DNA from: Brevibacterium aurantiacum
GTDB taxonomy: Bacteria; Actinomycetota; Actinomycetes; Actinomycetales; Brevibacteriaceae
Length of the DNA: 64,000 nucleotides
Direction of reading: 5' to 3'
Assembly: GCF_900169065.1 (NCBI RefSeq)
Contig: NZ_FXZB01000004.1
Coordinates: 62,001 to 126,000 of the forward strand
The position numbers were made by a program, and so were the translations under genes. Shown piece by piece: positions 3,370-43,103 of the stretch; the stretch's first letter is position 1; the number at the start of each line of letters is the position of its first letter. The notes below the pieces were generated by a model. The model was given only the letters and a program-made list of their open reading frames with translations, was not told the origin of the DNA and ran no database searches.

Positions 3370-5784
3370 TCAGTGCCTACCGTGGCCCGCCGAGGTTGTG
3401 GCCTCGTCCCGGTCGGACTCGACCAGGAGGCGGGTTCCCTCTGTCGAAGCGCCGTCAGCCTGTGCCTCGTCGGTCTGCATGCTGCTGGCCTGCGAGGAGT
3501 GGGCGGAGTTTGCTGGCTGATCGTCCCGAATATCGGCGTCACCGGCCGCCGCGGCATCCGCGCCGGAGTACTTGTACTTCGAGTGCGTGATCGCCTTGTT
3601 GGGCCACCACATCTTGTTGCCGACCAGGCTGATGATGGCCGGGACGATGACCGTGCGCACGAGGATGGTGTCGACGAGGACGCCGACGCCGACGATGAGT
3701 CCCAGCTGCCCCAGGACCATCAGCGGCAGCATGCCCAGCGCCGCGAACACTCCGGCCAGAACGATGCCGGCACTGGTGATCACGCCGCCGGTGTGGCTGA
3801 TGGCTTCGATCATTCCCTGGCGAGCACCGTGGACGACCGATTCCTTCTTCGCCCGGTGGGAGAGGAAGATCGAGTAGTCGATGCCCAGTGCCACGAGGAA
3901 CAGGAACGCGAGGATCGGAACCTGAGCATCGAGGACTGCCTGGCCGAACATCGCTCGGCTGAGGAAAGCGCCGAGGCCGATCGCCGCGGCCGAGGATGCC
4001 ACGTTGACCACGAGCAGCGTTCCGGCCACAAGCGGTGCACGGAGGATGCCGAGCAGGATGATGAAGCTGATGGCCAGGATCATCGGCGCGATCGTCAGGA
4101 AGTCCTGAGCGTTGCCGTCACGGACATCGAGTTCGGTGGCCGCCGCGCCGCCGACCTGTGCGTTCGCACCGTCGATCGCGTGGACGTCGGAGCGGATGTC
4201 CGTGATCAGGTCGAGGCCTGCGGGGCTGTCCGGTTCGTATTCGCCGGTGACCATGACCTTCGAGATCGAGGACCCCTCGGTCGTCGTCTCATCGATGACG
4301 TTGGCGCGCACGACCCCATCGATGTCGGCCACGGAGTCTGCAACCTGATCGGCATGGGATGAGTCGGCCACGATCCAGATCGGCTGCGATTCGCCGGGTG
4401 GGAAGTGCTCGGACAGGACGTCGAGACCCTGCGCCGATTCGGACTGCACGCGGAACTTCTCGGACTGGTCCAGTCCCACCGAGGTGCCGATGAGTCCCGT
4501 GGCCATGACACCGAGGATGACGATTCCGGCGTCGAGGTGGATGCCCGGCTTCTTGACCACGCGAGTCGCGATGGTCCTCCAGATTGAGGGCTTGGCCGCT
4601 GGCGTGGCTGCGGACGCTTCATCAGCAGCCGTCTCATCGGTGGCAGCCGTTTCATCGGTGGCGTCTTGGACCTTGGGGACGAAGGGCCAGAACACGCCCT
4701 TGCCGCAGATCGCGAGAACCGGTGGCAGTGCGAAGAGCACGGCGGCTGCGGCGATGAGGAGTCCGACCGCTGCGGCGATGCCCAGTCCGCGGGTTCCCGG
4801 GATGACGGCGAAGACGAGGCTGAGCAGGGACAGGACGACCGTCAGGTTCGAGGCGAGGATCGTCGAGGCGGTGTGGGTCCAGGCCGATCCCAGTGCCAGA
4901 CGGTGGTCGGATTCGCGGCCCAGCTCCTCGCGGTAGCGGGAGATGAACAGGAGCGCGTAGTTGGCTCCGGCGCCGAAGACGAGGACGCTGATGATGCCCG
5001 TGTCGAACTGCAGGTCAAGTGCGTCACCGATGGCCCCGGTCACCGTGGAGGCGAGCCCGTCGGCGGTGCCGATGACGATCAGGGGCAGCAGCCACAGGAT
5101 CGGCGAGCGGTAGGTGATGATGAGCAGCAGGGCGACGATGACGATGGTCACGATGAGGAGCGTGAAGTCCGCGCCGCCGAAGGCAGAGGCGATGTCGGCG
5201 CCGATCGCGGGTCCACCGGTGACCAGAAGGGACATTCCGGAATCCTCGAGCGCACCGGCCTGCGAGTCATCGGCGATGAAGTCGCGGAGCCCGTCGACGG
5301 TCTCAGCGGTGTCGGAGTTGGTCAGTCCGACCTCGATGGGGACCATGAGCAGCGCGGCCTTGCCGTCCTCGCTCATGATCGGTCGGCTGGCCTGGGACGC
5401 ATCGTCACCGGCCGCGGAGTCCGCTGCATCGGATGACTCGCCGTTCTGGCTCGAATCTCCGTTCTGGGTCGAGTCGATGTAGTCCCCGAGCGTGCCGCCG
5501 AGCTTGCCCAGTTCGGCCTGTTCGTCCGAGCTCAGTGTCGAACCGTCTTCGTGAGAGGCGACGACCATGACCGACTGCTTGTCGGCGTCCGGGAACTTCT
5601 GCAGGAGCTGGGCGGCCTGGGTGGATTCGGAGTCGGCCGGAGCTGATTCGTTGGCCCGGTCCTCGCCTGGTCCGGACAGGAGCCCGAAGAGGAGGGTGAC
5701 AAGGATGACGATCCCGCCGAGGACGAACCACGAACCGCGCTTCGACACGAGTGTGTGCGCGCTTTTCGTCAGTGTTGTGTTCAT
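3370..5784 (-). CDS. MMPL-family RND transporter
   Basis: An 804-residue inner-membrane exporter of the MMPL family (Pfam MMPL), proton-driven and typically moving lipids, glycolipids or hydrophobic drugs. A first membrane helix near residues 18-38 (WFVLGGIVILVTLLFGLLSG) is followed by an extracytoplasmic domain to about residue 205. A bundle of membrane helices comes next, then a second extracytoplasmic domain (about 445-550) and a second helix bundle. The second bundle carries the VALGIDYSIFLSHRAKKE motif typical of MMPL helix 4-5. The C-terminal tail is Ala/Asp/Glu-rich and probably disordered. The gene is a single unit: a palindromic terminator follows it, and a 122-bp gap separates its start from the nicotinamidase-like gene. 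The adjacent two-component system may regulate it; that is inference. Confidence 0.9.
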   Translation of the reverse strand: MNTTLTKSAHTLVSKRGSWFVLGGIVILVTLLFGLLSGPGEDRANESAPADSESTQAAQLLQKFPDADKQSVMVVASHEDGSTLSSDEQAELGKLGGTLGDYIDSTQNGDSSQNGESSDAADSAAGDDASQASRPIMSEDGKAALLMVPIEVGLTNSDTAETVDGLRDFIADDSQAGALEDSGMSLLVTGGPAIGADIASAFGGADFTLLIVTIVIVALLLIITYRSPILWLLPLIVIGTADGLASTVTGAIGDALDLQFDTGIISVLVFGAGANYALLFISRYREELGRESDHRLALGSAWTHTASTILASNLTVVLSLLSLVFAVIPGTRGLGIAAAVGLLIAAAAVLFALPPVLAICGKGVFWPFVPKVQDATDETAATDETAADEASAATPAAKPSIWRTIATRVVKKPGIHLDAGIVILGVMATGLIGTSVGLDQSEKFRVQSESAQGLDVLSEHFPPGESQPIWIVADSSHADQVADSVADIDGVVRANVIDETTTEGSSISKVMVTGEYEPDSPAGLDLITDIRSDVHAIDGANAQVGGAAATELDVRDGNAQDFLTIAPMILAISFIILLGILRAPLVAGTLLVVNVASSAAAIGLGAFLSRAMFGQAVLDAQVPILAFLFLVALGIDYSIFLSHRAKKESVVHGARQGMIEAISHTGGVITSAGIVLAGVFAALGMLPLMVLGQLGLIVGVGVLVDTILVRTVIVPAIISLVGNKMWWPNKAITHSKYKYSGADAAAAGDADIRDDQPANSAHSSQASSMQTDEAQADGASTEGTRLLVESDRDEATTSAGHGRH

Positions 5785-36983: not shown

Positions 36984-39392
36984 TTAGGCGTCGGCCATTT
37001 CGAGGGCGGCTTCGGGCTTCGTGGTCCTGGCTCGCACGATCGCGAGGAGGGACATCACGACTCCGATGATCGCCCAGGCCAGCAGGCCGCCATAGGCAGC
37101 GGCCACGCCCGTGGTTCCGGCGGTGATCGCAGCGAAGCCGTTCATCGCCGGCGTCAGCGGCAGGATCGGGGCGAGGAAGTCGAAGAAGCCGGGCACCGCG
37201 CCGATCGTTCGGCCGGCTACAGCCAGGACCACGGCGATCACCGACAGGAACCTGCCCACGCCGCCGAACCACGCCACCAGTGCGAAGTTGAGCACCATGA
37301 ACACCAGCGCGGAGACGAACGTCAACACCGCGATGTCGAAGCCTTGGACGGCGTCGATATCCAACACAGTCACCGCCAGGATCGACAGCACCAGGGCCTG
37401 CAGCAGTCCCACAATTACGCCAGGCACCAATCCGCGCAGCCAGACGGCCACCGAGGACTTCGTCGAGAGCAGAGTCGAGGCGGGGATCGGCTTGAGCACC
37501 GTGTAGGTGACGAGTCCGCCGACCCACAGGGCGAGCATGATGAGCAGCGCAAGAGTCGATCCCTGCAGCACATCGCCCGCGTCGGAGGAGTCCGGCGACT
37601 TGATGTTCTCCGAGGCGACTGTGGAGAGCTTGTCACGCTCCGGTGCCGAATAGGAGGGAACCTCGTCCGCGCCCTTCTTCACACCGTCGGCAAACTTGCC
37701 GACTCCTTGCGAATACTTGTCTGTGCCCTCGGACAGGGTGTCCAGTCCGGCCGCAAGGTCAGAGGTGCCGGTGGCAGCAGTGGAGACACCGGTCGTGTAC
37801 TGGTCGAGTCCCGCGGAGAATTCGCCGAGTCCATCGGAGAGCTGTCCGGCACCGTCGTCGAGTTCGCTCGAACCATCGGCGACCTTGGCGATGCCGTCGC
37901 TGAGCTCCGGCATTCCGTCGGCAAGCTTCTGATTGCCTTCGGCGACACCGGAGGCACCATCGCGCAGGCCCTTCGAGGCCTCGAGCAGCTTCGGAGCATT
38001 CTTCGAGATGTCCTCCATGCCCTTGGTGAGTTCACCGAGGCCGTCTTCGAGTCCCTTGACGAACTTGCTCATGCCGTCGCTGAGTTCACCCGCACCGTCG
38101 GCGAGCTTGTCCGCTCCGCCGAGCAGCGACTCGCCGTCCTGCTTCTGCTCCAGACCGTCGACGGCGCTGTTCAGGCCACCCGAGGTGCCGTTGAGCAGCC
38201 CCTGAGCGTAGGCCTTCTCAATGCCGGCGCAGACCTCGTCCGGTGTGCCGGCAGGGCACATCTGAGCACGTGCCTGATCGGCCTCGTCCTGGGTCATCAT
38301 GCCCGCCGACACCAGCGAATCGAGACCGGTCACGGTTCCGCTCTTGGCCAGCTGATCGGCCTGGTCGGCGCCTTCCTGGAGCCCGTCGCGGTACTGGCCG
38401 AGACCCGTTGACAGGCCTTCTGCACCCTCGGAGACTCCCTGGGCACCCTTGTCGAGGTCCTTGCCGCCCTTGAGGAGATCATCGAGACCGCCCTCGCCGG
38501 AGCCGGAGTCACCGGAACCGGCGAAGCCCTTGATGATCTGGTCGATGGACTTCGTGTACTCGTCGACTCCCCCGGAGAGCTCTCCGGCACCGTCAGCCAG
38601 CTTCTGCGTGCTGTCGGGCAGATCCGCCGTCGACTTCTTCATGTCCTGGAGACCGCCCGAAAGTTCAGAGGTGCCCTTCGACAGTTCACCAGCACCCTTG
38701 GACAGGTCTCCGGCGCCCTTGCTGAGTTCGGATCCAGAAGAGTCGAGCTTGTCCATACCGGCGGAGAGTTCACCGGCCCCGCTCGCGGATTTCTCCGTCC
38801 CCTTCGCCAGCTCTTCGCCACCCTCGTCGAGTTCACCGGCGGCGTCTCCGAGGTCCTTCATCTGATCACCCATGTCGTTGAAGCCGACATAGATGTTGTC
38901 GAGGTAGGTCTCGGTCATCTGCGTGTTGAAGGTTGTCCGTGCCACTCCGGCCACGGACTGCGCGATCTGGGTGTCGGCGGCCGGAGCGACTCCGGAGACG
39001 TCGACGTCGAGCTGCGTCTGAGTTGCCGACTTGGCATCGCTGACCGAGGTCACAGCCCGGGAGAAGCCCTCGGGGATCGTCAGAGTCGCTGCGTAGGTCC
39101 CATCGGACATGCCCTTCTCGGCATCGTCCTCATCGGTGATGACCCAATGGATGTTGTTGTCCTCTTCACCCACAAGCCCGCTGGTCAGCTGCCGGCCGAT
39201 CGGCACGGTCTCACCATCCACCTCGGCGCCGTCGTCATTGTTGACGATCGCGGCCTCGATCGTATCGAGGCGATCGGTGCTGTTGTACGTGGCCAGAATG
39301 AATCCAGCGGCCACGATGATCGGGATGAGCACCAGACCGAAGAGGGACAGCCAGGTCACGGGCCGTTTCGAGTTCGCACGTTCGAGTCTCAC
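36984..39392 (-). CDS. YhgE/Pip-family membrane protein
   Basis: An 802-residue protein of the YhgE/Pip (phage infection protein homologue) family, related to ABC-2-type permeases. One N-terminal helix (about residues 14-34) is followed by an external region of some 570 residues. Residues about 180-580 consist of degenerate short repeats of the type L-S-x-G-x-x-x-L (for example AGDLSKGAGELSKGTSELSG), predicted long coiled coil or beta-helix-like stalk. Five to six helices close the protein (about 610-790), with SSTLALLIMLALWVGGLVTY first. Start is GTG 39392, overlapping the upstream MMPL stop by four bases. Relatives act as phage receptors or secretion/export-associated permeases. Coupling to an MMPL protein with an ABC-like tail suggests that the two form one complex. 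Confidence 0.87.
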   Translation of the reverse strand: MRLERANSKRPVTWLSLFGLVLIPIIVAAGFILATYNSTDRLDTIEAAIVNNDDGAEVDGETVPIGRQLTSGLVGEEDNNIHWVITDEDDAEKGMSDGTYAATLTIPEGFSRAVTSVSDAKSATQTQLDVDVSGVAPAADTQIAQSVAGVARTTFNTQMTETYLDNIYVGFNDMGDQMKDLGDAAGELDEGGEELAKGTEKSASGAGELSAGMDKLDSSGSELSKGAGDLSKGAGELSKGTSELSGGLQDMKKSTADLPDSTQKLADGAGELSGGVDEYTKSIDQIIKGFAGSGDSGSGEGGLDDLLKGGKDLDKGAQGVSEGAEGLSTGLGQYRDGLQEGADQADQLAKSGTVTGLDSLVSAGMMTQDEADQARAQMCPAGTPDEVCAGIEKAYAQGLLNGTSGGLNSAVDGLEQKQDGESLLGGADKLADGAGELSDGMSKFVKGLEDGLGELTKGMEDISKNAPKLLEASKGLRDGASGVAEGNQKLADGMPELSDGIAKVADGSSELDDGAGQLSDGLGEFSAGLDQYTTGVSTAATGTSDLAAGLDTLSEGTDKYSQGVGKFADGVKKGADEVPSYSAPERDKLSTVASENIKSPDSSDAGDVLQGSTLALLIMLALWVGGLVTYTVLKPIPASTLLSTKSSVAVWLRGLVPGVIVGLLQALVLSILAVTVLDIDAVQGFDIAVLTFVSALVFMVLNFALVAWFGGVGRFLSVIAVVLAVAGRTIGAVPGFFDFLAPILPLTPAMNGFAAITAGTTGVAAAYGGLLAWAIIGVVMSLLAIVRARTTKPEAALEMADA

Positions 39393-42250
39393 GACTGCAC
39401 GCCTTCCATTTCGCTGCGACCGGCCGCGTGAGCTTGCACGCCGCCGTTGTCATTGTCGGTTCCACGCTCAGCCTCCGGCTTGGCCTCATCGAGATCGAGG
39501 TGGAAGTAGTTCGTGTTCGGGGACAGGATCCCGGTGATGTCGCCGTCGGGCAGACCCAGCACGATTGCCGTGCCCTCGGCCTGCAGATCGAAGAGTAGAT
39601 CGCGTACGTCCCGGCCGCTTTCTCCGGCCAGTGCACCTGCTTCGCTGATGATGAGCAGGTCCGGCGCCGAGGTGCGCAGCTGTGAGAGCTCGCGTGACCC
39701 TGGCATCGTCCCCGGCCCGTTCTTATCGAGGTCGAAGTACGGGACACGACGACGCACCCGTCCGGCATGTTCGGGCAGGACCATGTCTCCGATCTTCATC
39801 TCACCGGCGGTCAGTCCGACGCGACCGGAGAGAGCCAGCAGCAATGCCTTGCGTGCTTGGCCGCTGGCGACGAGGATCTGGCCCGGTGAGAGCGAGATGT
39901 CGACCTGGGCGAATCCGCGTCGACCCGAGCTGACGGCGATGCCGCGACCGTAGACCCGGTATTCGGAGTCCGGTTCCGGCCAATCTCGCAGAGCCACCTC
40001 GTGGGCCAGGCCCTCTCCTTCGACATCGAGGCGGGGCAGGATGCGGTCGAGCCACTTCGGCAGCCACCAGGCCTTGTCGCCGAGCATCTGCATGATTGCA
40101 GGCACCAAGGACATGCGCACCAGGAAGGCGTCGACGAAGATTCCCGAGGCCAGGGCAAGCGCGATGGACTTGATGATCGGCTCACCCGCGGGAACGAAGG
40201 CGGCGAAGACGGAGAACATGATGATCGCCGCGGCCGAGACCACTCGGGCCGACGAGGCGAAGCCGGCCTTGATCGCACCCCGGGCACTCGCACCGTGGAC
40301 GTAGGCCTCGCGCATTCCGGAGACGAGGAACACCTCGTAGTCCATGGCCAACCCGAAGAGGATGCCCATGACGATGATCGGCAGGAAGCTGATCACCGGA
40401 CCGGTCGAATCGATGCCCATCGCACCGGCGAAGAGTCCGTCGCGGAAGACGAGGACCACGGTGCCGAAGGAGGCGAAGACGGACAGGAGGAAACCGCCGG
40501 TGGCCTTGATCGGCACCCAGATCGAACGGAAGACCATCATGAGCAGGATGATCGAGAGGCCGACGACGAAGATGCCGAAGGGCACCAGCGCCTTGCCGAG
40601 CTGATCAGAGACATCGATCTGGATCGCCGTCGCACCGGTGACCGCGGTTTCGAAACCGTCCTCGTCCTCGATGTCGGCACTCAGATCACGGAGGCGGTCG
40701 ACGGTGTCGAGAGTCGCCGGATCTTCGGAGCTCGTGGTCGGAATGATCTGGAACAGAGCTGTCGTCGCGTCCCGGTTCGGGGTGGCGAGGATGACCTGGT
40801 CGACGCCTTCGACGTCCTCGATCTCCTTCTCGATCTTCTCGACATCGCCGAGGGGGTCGTCGGAGGTCACGATCTCACTCGTCATGACCAGCGGTCCGTT
40901 GAAGCCGGGACCGAAGTGCTCGTCGATGAGGTCATAGCTCGTGCGGGCAGGCGTGCCCTCCTCCTGGCTGCCTGCAGTGGGCAGGGAGAGCTGGAGGTTG
41001 GAGGCAGGGATGGCGAACAATGCGAGTCCACCGACGATGATCACGACCGTCAGCAGCGGAATCTTCGTCACCACGTGCAGCCAACCGGCGAAGAACTTGT
41101 TCATGATCGTCTTCGGGTACGGTTCACCGGCCTCAGCCTCCGCCTCGGCGGCAATCTCAGACCGAGAGACGGAGTCGCCCGCCTTCTCCTGCGCGGTTGC
41201 GAACGCCCGACGGTAGCGCTTCGTCGGCTTGGGGGTGATCTTGTCCTTGACCAATCCCAGCAGCGCGGGAACCATCGTCAGGGAGATGAGCACGGCGACG
41301 ACGACGGACCCGGAGGCGCCGATGCCCATGACGGTGAGGAACGGGATGCCGGCCAGGGACAGGCCGAGCAGCGCGATCATCACGGTCATGCCCGCGAAGA
41401 CGACGGCCGATCCGGCGGTGGCGACGGCCCGTCCGGTGGCTTCGAGCGGGTCATGTCCCTCGGCCAGGAGTGCCCGGGCCCTGGAGACGATGAAGAGGGC
41501 ATAGTCGATGCCGACCGCCAGGCCCAACATCAGCGCCAACATGATCGATGAAGAGTTGACTGCGCCGAAGGCCGTGGATCCCACGACCAGGAGAACGGAG
41601 ATGCCGACGCCGATGAGTGCTGTGATCAGCGGCATGCCGGCAGCGCGGAAGGATCCGAGGGTGAGCAGCAGGACGATGAAGGCGATGACGACGCCGATGC
41701 CTTCGACCCAGGAGATCTCCACGCCGGTGATCTGGAAGAGCTGGCCTCCGCCTTCGACTTGGGAGCCCTCGGGCAGGGCGTCGCGGATCGGATCCAGTTC
41801 GTCGAGAAGCTGGTCGGGGGCCGCTTCGCCGACCTCCTGCTGGGTGCCGTCGTACTGGACGGAGATCATCGCAGCGGAGTCGTCCTCGCTGATCGCACCC
41901 TTGACCATCTTGTCGAACGGCGAGGTCACGGCGTCGACGTGAGGGAGGTCTTCGAGCCGATCGACTTCCTTCTCGATCTCATCCTTGTACGTGGAGTCAT
42001 TGACCGAGTCGCCATCGGCGGCGACGACGATGACGGAGGCGCCCACACCTGAGGCTTCTGGGAAGGTCGTCTCCATCGAATCGAGTGCGACCTGAGCTTC
42101 GGACCCTGGGAGGGTGAAGTCGTTGTCGAAGTCCTTCGCGAAGGCCGCGACACCGGCGCCGACGAGCGCGAAGATCACAAACCACAGAGCGATGAATCGG
42201 ATGGGAGCGCGGTAGGCACGACGACCCAGAGCGTACAGGAATGTTGACAC
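39389..42250 (-). CDS. MMPL-family transporter fused to a degenerate ABC ATPase-like domain
   Basis: A 953-residue protein. Residues 1 to about 735 are a complete MMPL exporter: first helix near 20-40, two extracytoplasmic domains and two helix bundles, with the GLAVGIDYALFIVSRARALL and GLAMDYEVFLVSGMREAYV motifs in each half. Residues about 741-953 are an added cytoplasmic tail with the layout of an ABC ATPase. It has a strand/beta region (VDISLSPGQILVA), a P-loop position reading SGQARKALLLALSGR (794-808), then GLTAGEMKIGD. A Walker-B-like SAPDLLIISEAGAL (861-874) lacks the aspartate, and LQAEGTAIVLGLPDGD lacks the switch histidine. The invariant P-loop Gly-Lys-Ser/Thr and the signature motif are missing, so ATP hydrolysis is unlikely. 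Start GTG 42250 follows GAGG. It is divergent from a TetR gene and coupled to the YhgE/Pip gene. Confidence 0.88.
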   Translation of the reverse strand: MSTFLYALGRRAYRAPIRFIALWFVIFALVGAGVAAFAKDFDNDFTLPGSEAQVALDSMETTFPEASGVGASVIVVAADGDSVNDSTYKDEIEKEVDRLEDLPHVDAVTSPFDKMVKGAISEDDSAAMISVQYDGTQQEVGEAAPDQLLDELDPIRDALPEGSQVEGGGQLFQITGVEISWVEGIGVVIAFIVLLLTLGSFRAAGMPLITALIGVGISVLLVVGSTAFGAVNSSSIMLALMLGLAVGIDYALFIVSRARALLAEGHDPLEATGRAVATAGSAVVFAGMTVMIALLGLSLAGIPFLTVMGIGASGSVVVAVLISLTMVPALLGLVKDKITPKPTKRYRRAFATAQEKAGDSVSRSEIAAEAEAEAGEPYPKTIMNKFFAGWLHVVTKIPLLTVVIIVGGLALFAIPASNLQLSLPTAGSQEEGTPARTSYDLIDEHFGPGFNGPLVMTSEIVTSDDPLGDVEKIEKEIEDVEGVDQVILATPNRDATTALFQIIPTTSSEDPATLDTVDRLRDLSADIEDEDGFETAVTGATAIQIDVSDQLGKALVPFGIFVVGLSIILLMMVFRSIWVPIKATGGFLLSVFASFGTVVLVFRDGLFAGAMGIDSTGPVISFLPIIVMGILFGLAMDYEVFLVSGMREAYVHGASARGAIKAGFASSARVVSAAAIIMFSVFAAFVPAGEPIIKSIALALASGIFVDAFLVRMSLVPAIMQMLGDKAWWLPKWLDRILPRLDVEGEGLAHEVALRDWPEPDSEYRVYGRGIAVSSGRRGFAQVDISLSPGQILVASGQARKALLLALSGRVGLTAGEMKIGDMVLPEHAGRVRRRVPYFDLDKNGPGTMPGSRELSQLRTSAPDLLIISEAGALAGESGRDVRDLLFDLQAEGTAIVLGLPDGDITGILSPNTNYFHLDLDEAKPEAERGTDNDNGGVQAHAAGRSEMEGVQS

Positions 42251-42443: not shown

Positions 42444-43103
42444 ATGAAATGTTCGATGAATACAGACAATCTCAGCGCCCGCAGACGGCAGACCCGATCC
42501 ACCTTGGTGGAGGCGGGCATGTCCGTCTTCGCCCACAAAGGCATCGATGGCGCCTCGATCGAGGAGATCTGCGAGGCCGCCGGGTTCACTCGCGGCGCGT
42601 TCTACTCGAACTTCTCCAGCCGCGACGATCTGGTTCTGGCCACGATCGAACAGCGCACCTCCCGCGACCTCGACATGCTCGACGCCGCCATCGAACGCTG
42701 GCGCGATCGCCTCAACTCCAGTCGACCCGAGAACATCGAAGGCTTCCTCACGGAGTTCATCGACGACACCTTCAGTCAGAAGAGGTCCACCGCCGCCGAG
42801 GTGATCGCTGAGCAGGAAATCCAGCTGTACTGTCTGCGCACACCTGAGCTCTACCCCAGGTACGCGGAACTGAGCTCGTTCCAGGTCCAGCGGATCCAAT
42901 CGCTGATCGAGAACGCCATCGGCTTCGCGAAAGCCGCCTCGACAATTCCACTCAAGGACCTCATCGAGGCGCTCACCGCCATCCACACGCAGTCATCCCT
43001 GCGCGCAGCTGCGGGGAAGGATCTGCACGAGGTCGTCGAGATCGATTCCACGCAGATGGTGCGCATCCTCAACCGACTGCTCGACTTCTCGCAGAAGCCC
43101 TGA
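42444..43103 (+). CDS. TetR-family transcriptional regulator
   Basis: About 219 residues. The N-terminal helix-turn-helix contains TLVEAGMSVFAHKGIDGASI and EEICEAAGFTRGAFYSNFSS, where the recognition helix has the family pattern. The C-terminal ligand domain is variable and of typical length. The start is uncertain: ATG 42444 and ATG 42456 (MNTDNLSARRRQTR) are both plausible and neither has a strong ribosome-binding site; the frame stays open to 42291, but that part is not protein-like. Divergent from the MMPL gene, with a tandem palindromic operator between them, it is presumably the repressor of the MMPL-YhgE operon and of itself. Confidence 0.9.
   Translation: MKCSMNTDNLSARRRQTRSTLVEAGMSVFAHKGIDGASIEEICEAAGFTRGAFYSNFSSRDDLVLATIEQRTSRDLDMLDAAIERWRDRLNSSRPENIEGFLTEFIDDTFSQKRSTAAEVIAEQEIQLYCLRTPELYPRYAELSSFQVQRIQSLIENAIGFAKAASTIPLKDLIEALTAIHTQSSLRAAAGKDLHEVVEIDSTQMVRILNRLLDFSQKP

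Follow-up and report, generated by a model that had tools for sequence, protein, structure and literature searches.

The window, i.e. the whole stretch of 64,000 nucleotides of Brevibacterium aurantiacum DNA that was analysed, carries on its minus strand an MMPL family gene directly followed by a gene of the YhgE/Pip family. The MMPL ORF (39389-42250, minus strand) starts with GTG and encodes 953 aa in one open frame; Pfam PF03176 matches it in two stretches (2.1e-84), which represent the two MMPL repeats. About 210 residues follow the last helix of this protein, and the coordinates given for this tail in the original prediction, 39392-40030, are correct. The adjoining ORF (36984-39392, minus strand, 802 aa) encodes a YhgE/Pip family ABC-2-like membrane protein with XXXLXXG repeats, which is recognised by both NCBIfam and Pfam models. 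Its N-terminal domain matches TIGR03061 above the cut-off (8.4e-44, 149 bits, cut-off 96) and its C-terminal domain TIGR03062 below it (7.7e-23, 81 bits, cut-off 102), with additional matches to the TIGR03057 repeat and to Pfam PF12698 ABC2_membrane_3 (1.2e-20). The MMPL stop and the YhgE start overlap in the four nucleotides GTGA (39389-39392, minus strand), so that the translational coupling of the two genes claimed earlier holds. Divergent from the operon, on the plus strand, lies a gene for a TetR-family regulator (42444-43103; PF00440, 2.6e-13), which probably controls the MMPL-YhgE operon. The regulator and the MMPL gene have a common promoter region, and a similar TetR gene is found upstream of the operon in the relative L222. 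A second MMPL gene in the window, at about 3526-5001 (G000:C45:65526-67001), encodes a protein that is approximately 26% identical to the MMPL protein described here, and the match between the two stops short of the tail.

The C-terminal tail is related to ABC nucleotide-binding domains

As a single sequence the tail has no match in Pfam, NCBIfam or the PDB (phmmer), which is why annotation overlooks it and why its relationship to ABC nucleotide-binding domains (NBDs) becomes visible only via relatives and profiles. When a profile of 28 tails was compared with the whole PDB, ABC ATPases were the leading matches, with MlaF at 5.1e-7 next to FbpC, EcfA and the NBDs of CFTR. ABC_tran was matched individually by 11 of the 28 profile members (best 3.3e-7), and a profile-profile alignment (hhalign) of the tails with stand-alone NBDs gave an E-value of 5.5e-17. 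AlphaFold2 (AF2) run on 36 tails yielded a model with a pLDDT of 85 and a pTM of 0.79, most of the core being above 90. In Foldseek searches with this model, ABC ATPases were found throughout the top 50 (2.6e-9 to 2e-7, probability 1.00), and the matches include FtsE, MlaF, BceA, MacB and LolD. The TM-scores against ABC ATPases are near 0.5, as is consistent with the missing helical subdomain. The confident, ABC-type core and the profile searches thus bear out the ABC-like module that had been read from the order of motifs, and the AF2 and Foldseek results exclude an unrelated fold. Although the genome of B. aurantiacum contains 101 ABC_tran matches, the sole other significant match of the tail in this genome is P0003, an NBD encoded next to a second YhgE gene.

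The juxtamembrane helix and the DVEGEGL linker (residues 728-762, 39965-40069, minus strand) consist of invariant or near-invariant columns; MMPL relatives without a tail have their C-terminus 10-50 residues beyond this linker motif. The core of the pseudo-NBD follows at about residues 763-918 (39497-39964, minus strand), as delimited by AF2, Foldseek, the PDB profile and hhalign. Within the core, the former Walker A motif or P-loop and the next helix (GQARKALLLALSGR, 39821-39862, minus strand) were located from the alignments and the table of motif states. The P-loop is affected by a 3-residue deletion and contains no GK[ST]: in place of the pattern GxxxxGK[ST] we found GQ---ARKA at the aligned position. 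The turn GEMKIG (39788-39805, minus strand) aligns as the equivalent of the SGExxxxG turn of ABC proteins. From the SGE turn to Walker B there are about 42 residues in the tail versus about 105-125 in most stand-alone NBDs, and the alignment shows the helical subdomain with the signature to be deleted immediately before the former Walker B strand. This strand, LLIISEAGAL (39629-39658, minus strand), lacks the Walker B Asp with a catalytic Glu behind it (LLIISEAG), the Asp being replaced by Ser in this lineage. In the former switch or H-loop strand AIVLGLPDGD (39539-39568, minus strand), the switch His is absent (AIVLGLPD), and stand-alone relatives have Cys or another residue at this site. The C-terminal tip, ending in MEGVQS (39392-39496, minus strand), is variable in the alignment and predicted to be disordered (pLDDT <50 for model residues 209-226).

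The four motif assignments of the original prediction are all borne out by the profile-profile alignment, in which SGQARKALLLALSGR, taken there as the site of the P-loop and helix, aligns to GAAGSGKTSLLLSIAGR of intact stand-alone homologues, GLTAGEMKIGD aligns to VTSGEGHVGEL, and AIVLGLPDGD, assigned as an H-loop without its His, aligns to the switch region VIASCED. The claim of a Walker B without its Asp stands for the protein itself, as PDLLIISEAGAL aligns to APVVVLDNIDYL, but it does not extend to the family: the Asp is absent only in the close lineage of the B. aurantiacum protein, with IS or IG at this place, and is retained by most other fused relatives. The comparisons and models confirm the tail as an ABC nucleotide-binding domain by homology and predicted fold, devoid of the P-loop, the helical subdomain with the signature, the Walker B Asp and the switch His. 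With the catalytic motifs lost, the tail is predicted to be a pseudo-NBD without catalysis, in line with the non-hydrolysing module suggested earlier.

NBD modules are linked to YhgE genes

P0003 is a stand-alone ABC-type NBD with an intact Walker A motif (GAAGSGKTS) and is encoded directly upstream of the second YhgE gene of the genome. This second operon (G000:C45:169431-172680, 9432-12681 in L046) encodes a YhgE protein 32% identical to that at 36984-39392; its NBD lacks LSGGQ, carries Asp-Asn where Asp-Glu would be expected and has the switch His exchanged for Cys. Stand-alone relatives of P0003 occur in 40 of 297 genomes of the order, and YhgE is the next gene in all readable loci, L151 being cut by a contig end. 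In a survey across the class, YhgE was present in 85 of 297 genomes. Among YhgE genes with readable upstream DNA, an NBD-type module was located directly upstream in 116 loci as an MMPL fusion and in 62 loci as a stand-alone gene, duplicates included; after deduplication 96 fused and 52 stand-alone domains remained. The YhgE starts in this survey were set by N-terminal BLAST anchoring, and most gaps between NBD module and YhgE do not exceed a few tens of bases. No partner was called for six YhgE entries, namely L188, L191 and L251, which are cut at a locus end, and L166, L190 and L241; upstream of YhgE in L166 and L190 there is nonetheless an NBD-like ORF, which the rules on length or gap had passed over. 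Separate ABC-type NBD genes directly upstream of other YhgE genes, for which the original prediction had suggested a survey, do therefore exist.

The special link between tail and YhgE is also evident from the MMPL side. YhgE follows at once in 38 of 38 assessable loci with a tail-bearing MMPL (L053-L092 without the truncated L080, the truncated L093 also being set aside), whereas no YhgE was found within 7 kb of a tail-less MMPL in any of 39 loci (L094-L132, mostly Streptomyces and Amycolatopsis). The system is widespread, with representatives in Brevibacterium, Microbacteriaceae, Propionibacteriaceae including Cutibacterium, Nocardioidaceae and others. Within the genus Brevibacterium, at least 31 full-length relatives match the entire MMPL protein, including its tail, at 52-97% identity. 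Three loci (L087, L091 and L232) carry a fused NBD so strongly diverged that it is barely recognisable, with YhgE still the next gene.

Fusion and decay of the NBD

In the tree of the MMPL bodies (tail excluded), 63 fused and 19 tail-less proteins are split by one branch with a support of 100 by both methods. As the 63 full-length fused MMPLs form one clade, the fusion of the NBD to MMPL probably happened only once. This possible single origin also means that the perfect linkage to YhgE reflects retention in one lineage and not a multitude of independent events. The YhgE proteins adjoining fused MMPLs lie on one side of a branch with a support of 90. YhgE-partner NBDs, fused and stand-alone, are likewise placed together and apart from 20 other ABC NBDs of the B. 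aurantiacum genome (support 100), which supports descent of the tail from an ABC-type NBD partnering YhgE/Pip permeases. In the NBD tree, which is short, weak and gappy, the fused rows are not united in a clade of their own (4 changes), so that the history of the NBD is less certain than that of the MMPL body.

Walker A is preserved as GK[ST] in 8 of the 96 fused domains and as GR in one, and is lost in 87; the corresponding numbers for the 52 stand-alone domains are 28, 8 and 16. Stand-alone NBDs with a recognisable Walker A also keep the helical subdomain. At the level of sequence, the fused NBDs span a graded series from ABC-type NBD to pseudo-NBD. At one end stand L213 and L215, in which MMPL is fused to an NBD with an intact Walker A and a full helical subdomain. 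In L213 both PF03176 (1.1e-87) and, above the cut-off, PF00005 (ABC_tran, 4.5e-15) match one and the same ORF. Three fused domains (L035, L068 and L222) have kept Walker A with the helical subdomain deleted, and in five others (L036, L084, L086, L090 and L242) the helical subdomain with a PWYR-like motif is kept and the P-loop is gone. Parsimony on the tree requires at least 4 changes of the Walker A state and at least 3 of the helical-subdomain state. Because rebuilding of a P-loop is implausible, we read these changes as repeated losses.

LSGGQ, the catalytic Glu after the Walker B Asp and the switch His were found in none of the 148 aligned NBDs, some of the most degenerate rows not being alignable in the signature, Walker B and switch regions. 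As the stand-alone YhgE-partner NBDs also lack these features, weak or absent hydrolysis appears to predate the fusion; ATP hydrolysis was probably weak already at that stage and would not be explained by the power of MMPL alone. Stand-alone YhgE-partner NBDs often carry an exchange of the Walker A Lys for Arg (GxxGSGRTS; L216, L217, L218, L220 and L221), with examples in large genomes of the GTDB-coded families f35 and f37. Others have no P-loop at all (L224-L228 and L236-L240, with GDPGPGHVA or GPPGTGHTA). Pseudo-NBDs hence occur without MMPL fusion, and the loss of catalysis is a recurring trait of YhgE systems.

Selection and the MMPL proton relay

Pairwise dN/dS values for the pseudo-NBD within Brevibacterium range from 0.09 to 0.31 in 11 of 12 pairs, with 0.57 in the remaining pair, and from 0.06 to 0.20 for the MMPL body. 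These values indicate that the pseudo-NBD is under purifying selection and still used. Its rate of evolution is about 1.5-2 times that of the MMPL body; given this difference and the single omega of 0.57, the constraint is to be considered moderate. The MMPL part contains two Asp-Tyr pairs, D249-Y250 in TM4 (GIDYALF; 41501-41506, minus strand) and D637-Y638 in TM10 (AMDYEVF; 40337-40342, minus strand), which we take to be the equivalents of the Asp-Tyr proton-relay pairs of MmpL3. Each is DY in 88 of 88 distinct full-length fused relatives, and, judged from this alignment, the proton-relay residues of the fused proteins are intact.

Comparison with known families

With the MMPL family of the RND superfamily (MmpL3, actII/TIGR00833) the protein has in common the two PF03176 repeats and both Asp-Tyr pairs. 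It matches the MmpL3 and actII models, but far below their curated cut-offs, and differs from known MMPLs by the ABC-derived C-terminal domain and the adjoining YhgE. The tail resembles ABC-type NBDs (PF00005; MlaF, the NBDs of ABCA proteins, and FtsE by fold) in the RecA-like core, the antiparallel beta part and the order of motifs; unlike these it has no Walker A, signature or helical subdomain, Walker B Asp or switch His, and is covalently attached to an MMPL protein. Closest to it are the stand-alone YhgE-partner NBDs of Actinomycetes such as P0003, which form one clade with the fused domain and occupy the same site upstream of yhgE. Both have LLLxLAGR and LPxxAxxVRRRV in common, and a (Q)PWYR helical motif occurs in the stand-alone NBDs and in the longer fused forms. 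The stand-alone NBDs differ from the tail in being separate genes and in their Walker A, which is intact in 28 of 52 and GR in 8.

The YhgE protein matches TIGR03061, TIGR03057 and ABC2_membrane_3, as expected for the YhgE/Pip family (phage infection protein, EsaA of the T7SS; PIP family of TCDB). To our knowledge no adjacent NBD is involved in the action of Pip and EsaA; the YhgE genes described here differ in adjoining an NBD or pseudo-NBD gene at every readable locus. ABC-2 homologues of the PIP family have been noted (PMC3924187), and it was speculated that the enterococcal PIP transports a small molecule (PMC4999554). Neither an MMPL-ABC fusion nor a YhgE-partner NBD is described in the open-access literature that we searched, an absence that is not proof of novelty. 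The parts of the system belong to known families, and it is their combination and the graded series that appear to be new.

Discussion

We favour the reading, with a probability of roughly 0.62, that an NBD partnering YhgE was fused once to an MMPL protein and was kept as a docking and coupling module, proton energy having replaced ATP. In an actinobacterial ancestor, a stand-alone NBD gene upstream of yhgE would have been joined to the C-terminus of MMPL after the DVEGEGL motif. The fused NBD would initially have been complete, with an intact Walker A and helical subdomain as in L213 and L215; several lineages would later have lost the P-loop and/or the helical subdomain, the RecA-like core being kept under purifying selection. 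The pseudo-NBD core may sit on the cytoplasmic face of YhgE, at the usual site of an NBD, and could thereby unite the proton-driven MMPL and the ABC-2-like YhgE permease in a single complex for envelope export. Such a complex would be energised by the proton flux of MMPL and not by ATP; ATP hydrolysis would be dispensable with MMPL supplying proton-driven energy, and the export unit is probably controlled by the divergent TetR regulator (PF00440). That the tail physically docks on YhgE and that MMPL and YhgE are mechanically coupled we infer from the 4-nt gene overlap, the invariant adjacency of the genes and their co-inheritance. The AF2 model of YhgE itself is poor (pTM 0.39), and Foldseek matches of this low-confidence model are dominated by coiled coils, with local matches to ABCH-9C, NosY, CcmB and Wzm at E >0.2.

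The substrate is probably lipidic or hydrophobic. Searching the PDB with a profile of stand-alone YhgE-partner NBDs gave NBDs of eukaryotic ABCA phospholipid transporters as best matches (ABCA3, 1.8e-17), and these ABCA-like NBDs, which fit the ABC2_membrane_3 match of YhgE, may be a hint towards lipid substrates.

The pseudo-NBD might instead be a regulatory sensor that gates MMPL by binding ATP, another nucleotide or a protein with no need of a canonical P-loop, the adjacency of YhgE being no more than inherited gene order. Conservation of the core fold and of the G/LLLA..GR helix despite the lost P-loop would suit such a role, as would L035, L068 and L222, where a Walker A kept without the helical subdomain fits binding better than hydrolysis. 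We nevertheless consider a sensor unlikely: a conserved pocket that would replace the P-loop is not apparent, the former P-loop differs between members of the fused clade in both sequence and length, as would not be expected of a binding site, and the linkage to YhgE is kept in all 38 assessable tail-bearing loci. Somewhat less probable still is a functionless vestige in passive decay after the fusion. That catalytic motifs and the helical subdomain were lost repeatedly, that the domain evolves faster than the MMPL body and that the tails in L087, L091 and L232 are nearly unrecognisable could all be read in this way, but purifying selection and the compact, confidently predicted fold argue against it, and the domain was lost in none of the 63 examined full-length members of the fused clade, even though truncation would be easy.

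We attach a similarly low likelihood to a heterodimer model, in which the pseudo-NBD would form the inactive half and would recruit a canonical ABC ATPase encoded elsewhere, leaving YhgE driven by ATP. Many ABC transporters are heterodimers in which one of the sites is degenerate, and among its 101 ABC_tran matches the genome offers potential partners; yet a simple motif search for a canonical ATPase gene (Walker A and LSGGQ) in 51 loci, some of them truncated, was positive in only 4 and never within the operon, and loss of the helical subdomain would remove the usual surfaces for NBD-NBD contact and coupling. A missing ATPase elsewhere in the operon is likewise unsupported by these loci. That the tail is an artefact of a frameshift, an assembly error or a chance resemblance, as the lack of a family match for the tail sequence alone might suggest, has a negligible probability: its sequence and frame are preserved in numerous genomes and genera, an ABC domain is indicated by structure and profile searches alike, and conservation of the tail in the genus rules out its restriction to a frameshifted gene.

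Under the favoured docking and coupling model, a proton-driven MMPL pump would have captured the ATPase of an ABC-2-like YhgE permease and made it a coupling module devoid of catalysis. Whether this constitutes a new class of hybrid transporter is a tentative proposal, to which we give somewhat less than even odds. In Actinomycetes, the NBD or pseudo-NBD gene found directly upstream at readable loci provides YhgE/Pip proteins with the partner that had been missing. Transporters of the ABC and RND/MMPL types are handled as distinct classes with distinct energy sources. The fused lineage with its intermediates makes it testable whether a proton-driven pump can re-power an ABC-2-type permease, and the graded series what a pseudo-NBD contributes after the use of ATP has been lost. 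If the model is true, an ABC-type permease would be driven by proton flux, with living intermediates leading from L213 and L215 to the fully degenerate form of B. aurantiacum.
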